Source of the DNA: Deltaproteobacteria bacterium
GTDB taxonomy: Bacteria; Desulfobacterota; GWC2-55-46
NCBI GenBank assembly: GCA_016218105.1
Contig: JACRET010000043.1
Location: 1-64,000 of the forward strand
DNA: 64,000 nt
Direction of reading: 5' to 3'
Shown here piece after piece: positions 59,002 to 60,687 of the stretch (the first letter of the stretch is position 1; the number at the start of each line of letters is the position of its first letter). The position numbers were made by a program, and so were the translations under genes. The notes under the pieces were generated by a model. It ran no database searches and had not been told where the DNA came from. It saw only the letters and a list, made by a program, of their open reading frames with translations.

Positions 59002-59078
59002 TGGTCGGGGCGAGAGGATTCGAACCTCCGGCCCCCGCGTCCCGAACGCGGTGCTCTACCAGACTGAGCCACGCCCCG
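59002..59078 (-). tRNA. tRNA-Pro (anticodon CGG)
   Basis: The cloverleaf on the minus strand has acceptor CGGGGCG/CGCCCCG, D arm GCTC...GAGC, anticodon stem CCGCG/CGCGG with loop TTCGGGA (anticodon CGG) and T arm GGAGG-TTCGAAT-CCTCT. The 3' CCA is encoded. A tyrosine-integrase remnant lies four bases from the 5' end, suggesting an old insertion next to this tRNA. Confidence 0.95.
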
Positions 59079-59082
59079 ACTG

Positions 59083-59409
59083 TCAACATATCAAACTAAT
59101 CCATGACCAAACTTGCCAATCCAGCCAGCCAGATTTAACATAAATCATCGTCGTCTCGATGTCAAGATGACCGCCGAGCCTCATGATCTTCTGGACAGGT
59201 ACATTTTTCCTGGCAAGCTGGGTACAGAAGGTATGCCGAAGTGAATGTATATCCGCATCCGCGATTCCGATTATTTTATAGCATACCTTCAGGTTCCGAA
59301 GCAAATTATTTTTCCACGTATTTGCAAGGCAGCCCCGATGAAAGGCCGATTGATAATTATCTTTCAAAGAGTTAAAATCCGGTTGAGTAGTCTGTTTTTT
59401 CGTTTTCAT
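59083..59409 (-). pseudogene. Tyrosine recombinase (phage integrase) C-terminal remnant
   Basis: 108 residues of the catalytic half: IADADIHSLRHTFCTQLARK contains the His-x-x-Arg box, GGHLDIETTMIYVKS contains the final His and Tyr nucleophile, and the Asn-rich start (DFNSLKDNYQSAFHRG) corresponds to the region before the box. The N-terminal arm and core-binding domains and the first catalytic Arg/Lys are missing, and the PFKFB-like gene starts at once upstream. It is therefore a fragment. The C-terminal tail after Tyr is abnormal. It abuts the 5' end of tRNA-Pro. Confidence 0.75.
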
Positions 59410-59426
59410 TCAGACGGAAGGGCTGT

Positions 59427-60626
59427 ATGGTGGAAAACCGGAGATTAGCAGTTATAATGGTAGGGCTCCCCGCAAGGCGCAAGACCTTTCTGTCTTTAAA
59501 GCTGCAAAGATATTTTGAATGGCAGGGATACAGGATCAGGATTTTCAATGTCGGCGGCTACAGGAGGGATATTTCAGGCTTTAAGTCCTCAACCAGCGAT
59601 TTCTTCGATCCGCGCGCCAGGGCATTTGCCCAGGAGAGGGAAAGGATCGCCAAGCAATGTTTCAGCGACCTGGCCGTTTGGCTGCGGGCCGAGGGAGATA
59701 TAGCGATATACGACGCGACGAATGTCACCTCCGCGAGAAGGGAATATCTGATTTCAGAATGTCTGAGGAATGGCTTTGACTATATCTTTGTGGAAAACAT
59801 CTGTGACGATCCGGAAATCCTTGAAAAGATCGTCAGCTCGAAGGTAAACACCAGCGCCGACTACAAAGATAAGAAGGCCGCATGGGCGAAAAAGGATTTC
59901 TGGGAGAGGATACGCCATTACGAGAGCGTTTATGAGACGGTCGGCGAAGGTCTGCCGAATATCAGGCTTTTTAACTTCGGGGAGAGGATAAGTAAAAATT
60001 TTGACCCCGGCCACAGCCTGTACTGTGAAATTGCGGAACTTCTGGAGAGCGTCAATTTGAACGGAAAAAACATCTATATTACGAGGCACGGCGAGACTTT
60101 TTTCAACCTTGAGGACAGGATAGGGGGAGATTCTCCCTTAACTGAAAAGGGCGTGGATTTCGCGAAAAAGTTGAATAGCCATTTCACAGGCAGGGATTTG
60201 ATAATTTTTACCAGCAATAAAAGGCGGGCTGTAGAGACAGCCTCTTTTTTTGACTGCGAGAAGGTCTGCCTCGAAGAGCTGAACGAAATAAATTCGGGGA
60301 TTTGCGACAGCATGACTTACGATGAGATAGCCGAGAGATACCCCGCGATCCACGACTCCCGAAAGACCGATAAATTCCACTTCCGCTATCCCCAGGGAGA
60401 ATCGTACCGGGACCTGATCCAAAGGCTTAAAAAAGCTATCCTCAGGATCGAATCGCAGAGGAAAGATGTCCTGGTAATCGCCCACAGGGCTGTCAACCGC
60501 TGTCTTTTTTCCTATTTCATCCCCTTCCCGCAGGGAGACATCCCGTATATCGAAATGCCTCTCAACAAGATCATCAGGATACATTCTAAAGATGCCCGCT
60601 ATGCGTTTGAAGAGCTATCGATCTGA
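59427..60626 (+). CDS. Eukaryote-type 6-phosphofructo-2-kinase/fructose-2,6-bisphosphatase homologue
   Basis: A 399-residue bifunctional architecture: an N-terminal 6PF2K kinase domain (about 5-205) and a C-terminal histidine phosphatase (about 212-390), as in PFKFB. The kinase part has FNVGGYRRDISGF, YDATNVTSARRE and FVENICDDPEI, all close to PFKFB. The P-loop, however, is GLPARRKT (13-20) with Arg where PFKFB has Gly (codon CGC), which should weaken ATP binding. The phosphatase is intact: R220-H221-G222-E223, E287 (LNEINSGICDSMTY) and H353 (VIAHRAV). It probably removes the 2-phosphate of fructose 2,6-bisphosphate. GGAAGGG precedes the ATG. It has no operon partner and lies next to an integrase remnant. 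Confidence 0.9.
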   Translation: MVENRRLAVIMVGLPARRKTFLSLKLQRYFEWQGYRIRIFNVGGYRRDISGFKSSTSDFFDPRARAFAQERERIAKQCFSDLAVWLRAEGDIAIYDATNVTSARREYLISECLRNGFDYIFVENICDDPEILEKIVSSKVNTSADYKDKKAAWAKKDFWERIRHYESVYETVGEGLPNIRLFNFGERISKNFDPGHSLYCEIAELLESVNLNGKNIYITRHGETFFNLEDRIGGDSPLTEKGVDFAKKLNSHFTGRDLIIFTSNKRRAVETASFFDCEKVCLEELNEINSGICDSMTYDEIAERYPAIHDSRKTDKFHFRYPQGESYRDLIQRLKKAILRIESQRKDVLVIAHRAVNRCLFSYFIPFPQGDIPYIEMPLNKIIRIHSKDARYAFEELSI

Positions 60627-60687
60627 ACTTCCTGCTTACCTTATTCGTCTCTGATAAACGGCATTTTTTAAAGCCAGAAAAGAGAGT

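Follow-up and report, generated by a model that had tools for sequence, protein, structure and literature searches.

The window, i.e., the 64,000-nucleotide stretch of DNA analysed here, encodes a genuine full-length member of the PFKFB (6-phosphofructo-2-kinase/fructose-2,6-bisphosphatase) family, and comparison with its relatives marks its Arg18 as a rare and long-retained variant of the Walker A motif. What has to be explained is one long-kept change inside an otherwise complete kinase active site. The activities, substrate, regulatory role and targets of the protein we infer, and the reading we favour, to which we would give an even chance, is that the retained G18R strongly impairs or retunes the 2-kinase of this PFKFB, while its kinase site still binds ligand and its phosphatase is intact.

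A full-length PFKFB and its bacterial relatives

The kinase and phosphatase domains lie in one chain, both Pfam matches being above cut-off (Table 1), and human PFKFB3 (6iby) matches residues 3-385 over 383 aa with an E value of 1.5e-80 (phmmer). An AlphaFold2 model built from homologues has a mean pLDDT of 93.3 and matches bovine PFKFB2 with a Z of 48.2 (396 aligned residues, 2.3 A). The two-domain PFKFB resemblance proposed in an earlier reading of the letters by themselves (the ‘sequence-only reading’) is thus borne out by domain models, alignment and fold. With eukaryotic PFKFB1-4 (PDB 2axn, 1bif, 5hr5) the full-length domain order is shared, at 35-37% identity and Z of 45-48 over 392-396 residues, though their N- and C-terminal extensions are both missing. 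All but one of the eukaryotic catalytic residues, kinase and phosphatase together, are present; the Walker A Gly47 of human PFKFB3 is here Arg18.

That the phosphatase half is intact is well supported by the residues it keeps. The catalytic Arg-His-Gly, Glu and second His of fructose-2,6-bisphosphatase are found as R220 H221 G222, E287 and H353, and alignment confirms the RHGE (with E223), E287 and H353 picked out earlier. N227, R267, Y298, R312, K316 and R358 are also in place, and all 26 phosphatase positions invariant among the 97 bacterial homologues with a Walker A glycine are kept. The substrate residues (Asn, the Arg at the rat R307 site, Tyr, Arg, Lys and Arg) are matched, while Gln389 of human PFKFB3 is replaced by Arg354, a site occupied by Arg in 69 and by Gln in 28 of the 99 bacterial homologues; the pocket is thus slightly unlike the animal one, and its substrate could differ. 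Ser303 of PFKFB3 is associated with low phosphatase activity, and as Arg267 stands in its place in the window protein, a robust phosphatase would be expected.

Table 1. Features of the window around the PFKFB gene, and loci elsewhere with which they are compared
Feature	Location	Strand	Remarks
tRNA-Pro (CGG)	59002..59078	-	ARAGORN; adjoins insertion
Inserted segment, about 1.57 kb	59081..60655		Integrase remnant + PFKFB gene; defined against the site in congener G002
Tyrosine recombinase C-terminal remnant, 108 aa	59083..59409	-	Pfam PF00589 positions 112-168 of 172, E 2.7e-12
PFKFB-like gene	59427..60626	+	399 aa, ATG start; 6PF2K domain then fructose-2,6-bisphosphatase domain
6PF2K (P-loop kinase) domain, residues 3-189	59433..59993	+	Pfam PF01591, E 2e-51
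Walker A motif GLPARRKT, residues 13-20	59463..59486	+	Aligned to human GLPARGKT
Arg18 codon CGC	59478..59480	+	Gly in 97/99 bacterial homologues
His_Phos_1 (fructose-2,6-bisphosphatase) domain, residues 216-397	60072..60617	+	Pfam, E 1.3e-34
L003 (same gene as L054)	Record JACRCL010000031.1		Genome G015, MAG NC_groundwater_1645_Pr3_B-0.1um_57_199
L146	Congener G002 (genome of JACPGB010000051.1)		tRNA-Pro/MCP site without insert
Organism's PFK	L132:1390-2523		GGDDT/PKTIDND signature
L053 and L092	Azambacteria and Wolfebacteria assemblies (Patescibacteria)		Clade A PFKFB genes

How unusual is such a gene in a bacterium? ‘Rare in bacteria’, as the sequence-only reading had it, is wrong as to genes. 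A 6PF2K domain is found, at a match threshold of E <= 1e-15, in 58 of 395 Desulfobacterota genomes sampled evenly across the phylum, and an exception was already published for Desulfovibrio, with Desulfovibrio desulfuricans named as the only bacterium to have fructose-2,6-bisphosphate (PMC9721465, which cites Rider et al. 2004). A scan of GTDB genomes gave 52 loci with PFKFB-like genes, mostly of Desulfobulbaceae, Desulfovibrio and other Deltaproteobacteria, the finds outside Deltaproteobacteria being single ones in Nitrospirota and Woesearchaeota and two in Patescibacteria. Only six of the 63 genomes of the window's own class have PFKFB, namely four of the five of its genus, one of the two of genus g12 and one distant member of clade B from another family.

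Two separate lineages are involved. Clade A is a small bacterial lineage made up of the window organism's family and two Patescibacteria, and clade B comprises about 90 PFKFB-like sequences from Desulfobulbus, Desulfovibrio and other Desulfobacterota; the distance between them is about that of clade A to human PFKFB3, the eukaryotes being sampled, for the rooting of clade A, by metazoan sequence alone. Clade B has the architecture and active sites of the window protein at about 34-38% identity, with the Walker A Gly in all and with Asn in place of Cys126 (as in 91 of 99 homologues). The Gly-carrying members of clade A (those of GWB2_55_19 and relatives in the same genus, and those of the two Patescibacteria) are closer, at 52-62% identity, with equal length and the same sites, but their Walker A reads GLPARGKS. 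The clade A loci compared share no conserved metabolic neighbour gene. Carriage by phages or plasmids was considered and rejected, as those searched gave no full-length match and viral contigs just a partial one, of 28%, to the kinase half only. Within the literature searched, the bacterial family looks little studied.

The Walker A arginine and the kinase half

In the P-loop consensus, GxxxxGK[ST], a Gly precedes the Walker A Lys, and to our knowledge that glycine is near-universal among P-loop NTPases, so that, on general P-loop grounds, an Arg in its place would be expected to disturb phosphate binding. The window protein departs from this consensus, to which 97 of 99 distinct bacterial homologues conform. 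The other Arg carrier, L003 (Table 1), belongs to another genus and its protein is 67% identical. The replacement of Gly by Arg through CGC, spotted at the outset, is there in the ORF and in its alignment to PFKFB3, but could it be trivial? The sequence-only reading had itself raised a sequencing error at CGC and an Arg always carried by relatives. Neither was found: a sequencing or assembly error is rejected, L003 in a second genome having Arg by way of CGG, and Gly prevails among the relatives. Synonymous differences between the two genes amount to 0.64-0.76 per site (pS), near saturation, which together with the second genome's own codon rules out a very recent mutation also and points to Arg18 having been retained over a long time. 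On its origin, the best tree leaves the two Arg carriers unpaired, though pairing them is not rejected (AU test p 0.35); a kinase-only tree pairs them (65%), whereas in a phosphatase-only tree L003 groups with the Gly-carrying congeners (88%) and not with the window protein. Single and double origins of Arg18 are both compatible with the trees.

Has the kinase half been let go? Seventeen of its positions are invariant across the 97 Gly carriers, and the window protein and L003 keep the other 16 of 16, differing only at Gly18. Lys19, Thr20, Arg46, Arg71, Asp96, Arg104, Lys139, Arg161 and Tyr165 are all present, as are, in human numbering, K48, R75, R99, D125, R133, K169, R190 and Y194, whose roles we take to be those assigned in PFKFB structures. 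The ratio of dN in the kinase half to that in the phosphatase half is 0.98 between the window gene and L003, compared with 2.6-3.8 among the Gly-carrying congeners, which argues that the kinase domain of the Arg carriers is still under purifying selection; on a fixed tree their summed end branches are 0.53 for the kinase and 0.42 for the phosphatase. By these measures the kinase half is without trace of relaxed constraint or decay and has evolved no faster than the phosphatase half. A kinase half that is dead and decaying, leaving the phosphatase as all that matters, would account for G18R in Walker A, but it sits badly with both the dN ratio and the fact that neither lineage has lost another invariant kinase residue, and we consider it very improbable. 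A recent death of the kinase is disfavoured by the kept residues, the dN ratio and the comparable end branches. The earlier suggestion that the kinase half is inactive is a hypothesis; the window kinase is probably impaired, with its site not abandoned.

The same completeness can be turned the other way. Keeping D96, K19, T20, K139 and all of the F6P arginines exceeds the needs of a binding domain, which counts against impairment and would also fit continuing catalysis. There is a substantial minority chance, in our estimation, that the kinase is still active and the enzyme bifunctional, with Arg18 tolerated or even tuned, e.g., for lower ATP affinity or for another nucleotide or phosphoryl donor. 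The retention of the 16 positions in both Arg carriers, the lack of excess change in the kinase half and the holding of Arg through near-saturated synonymous divergence all suit an active kinase, while what tells against it is the sheer constancy of the glycine, from which none of the 97 other bacterial homologues departs, nor does human PFKFB3, and which is near-universal among P-loop NTPases.

Insertion at tRNA-Pro

In congener G002 just 112 bp, with neither integrase nor PFKFB, separate tRNA-Pro from the MCP terminator. DNA homology between the window and that locus stops at 59080 (L146:8224) and restarts at 60656 (L146:8337), within a shared gene order of endonuclease III, polyprenyl synthase, TIGR02757-like protein, cupredoxin-like protein, tRNA-Pro, MCP and response regulator, as we read these sequences. 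The Gly-carrying clade A genes are not at tRNA-Pro; in G002, G003 and G004 PFKFB lies elsewhere, beside an hrpB-like helicase gene (loci L051, L052 and L050), a neighbour that a search run without a positive control did not find in G000 (the window's own assembly), G001 or G015. Grouping of the window protein with those of its congeners is rejected (p 0.018). The empty site, the homology break and the rejected grouping together make horizontal gain or relocation of PFKFB by insertion at tRNA-Pro a well-supported interpretation, in keeping with the horizontal gain first proposed from the integrase remnant and tRNA-Pro beside the gene, both of which Pfam and ARAGORN recover. At 0.615, the GC3 of the PFKFB gene falls within the spread seen among the other long ORFs of the window.

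As the remnant is a C-terminal piece only and is on the 5′ side of tRNA-Pro, the integrase's part in the insertion is something we infer. Another contig of the same bin has at tRNA-Pro (L148) a 78%-identical remnant that no PFKFB follows within 550 bp; remnant and gene may therefore have arrived separately. At the DNA level L148:553-731 and window 59137-59315 are 82% identical; both are 5′ of tRNA-Pro, a side unusual for tRNA-targeted integration. Just downstream of tRNA-Pro, L146:7952-8090 and L148:962-1100 have a fragment copied from the tRNA-Pro 3′ end combined with a GC-rich element; seen in G002 and on contig C17 of G000 and not in the window, this looks like a tRNA-end-derived repeat.

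A possible fructose-2,6-bisphosphate circuit

On the favoured reading of a retained, impairing or retuning arginine beside an intact phosphatase, a clade A PFKFB would have been gained in the window organism by the tRNA-Pro insertion. Its phosphatase half would work through phospho-His221 on fructose-2,6-bisphosphate, or on some bisphosphate closely akin to it, as the substrate to be hydrolysed, and G18R, selectively retained, would strongly lower or abolish (or retune) ATP-dependent 2-phosphorylation of F6P. The otherwise complete kinase site would still bind F6P and/or nucleotide and steer the phosphatase, with the balance of the enzyme thereby shifted to signal breakdown, and the targets would be two enzymes whose genes the assembly also contains, a PPi-type PFK and a class I FBPase.

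Are those targets the organism's own? Contamination of the bin is put at 5.78%, and the tRNA-Pro region occurs in it twice, on C12 (the window's contig) and C17 (that of L148), whose TIGR02757-like genes are about 72% identical in protein and whose polyprenyl-synthase regions are likewise duplicated. The bin seems to mix two related organisms, C12 being nearer the genus than C17, and its PFK and FBPase genes (on C46 and C28) could in principle be from the other one. G015 and every congener tested have PFK; class I FBPase is encoded in G015, G002 and G003, though none was found in G004, which is 90% complete. The PFKs of the genus and G015 have the motifs GGDDT and PKTIDND, GGDD being the signature of PPi-dependent PFK; despite it, the NCBIfam ‘PFK_mixed’ and ‘ATP-dependent’ models both match the organism's PFK. 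Beside PFK, class I FBPase is the other classical fructose-2,6-bisphosphate target. In plants, fructose-2,6-bisphosphate acts as an activator of PPi-PFKs (PMC12203962). With both kinds of target encoded in the assembly, a fructose-2,6-bisphosphate circuit in the window organism is possible on gene content.

Can the same role be expected throughout clade A? L053 and L092 are the nearest homologues outside the window organism's family, and in their two assemblies no PFK, class I FBPase or GlpX was detectable, so that the known fructose-2,6-bisphosphate targets appear to be missing there, which speaks against a universal clade A role. PFK absence is common in such genomes (PMC7143001), and among 380 genomes searched from the phylum of Wolfebacteria PFKFB was seen only in L092's own. 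These hosts, and the Arg354 that replaces Gln389 in the phosphatase pocket, would be accommodated if the clade A substrate were a sugar phosphate or metabolite other than fructose-6-phosphate/fructose-2,6-bisphosphate. That we think unlikely: the F6P-contact arginines, K139 and Y165 of the kinase and Y298, R312, K316 and R358 of the phosphatase are all kept, the Patescibacteria assemblies are MAGs, and genomes of the window's family have PFK and mostly class I FBPase.

The fullest form of the proposal is that the Walker A arginine makes this PFKFB one-way, a phosphatase with its ex-kinase site as metabolite sensor in a bacterial circuit that has PPi-dependent PFK and class I FBPase as its targets. 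It is offered tentatively, as a conjecture more doubtful than not, but if true it would mean bacterial use of a signal that most descriptions confine to eukaryotes. As recently as 2026 a preprint termed the circuit eukaryote-specific (PMC12873801), although the 58 Desulfobacterota genomes with the kinase domain show a nearly invariant active site, and cultured strains of Desulfobulbus or Desulfogranum thus allow a direct test of fructose-2,6-bisphosphate signalling in bacteria. In the Arg/Gly pair nature offers an experiment on the role of the Walker A glycine in a small-molecule kinase, and it is in this experiment, together with a widespread and little-studied bacterial PFKFB family, that the main interest lies.
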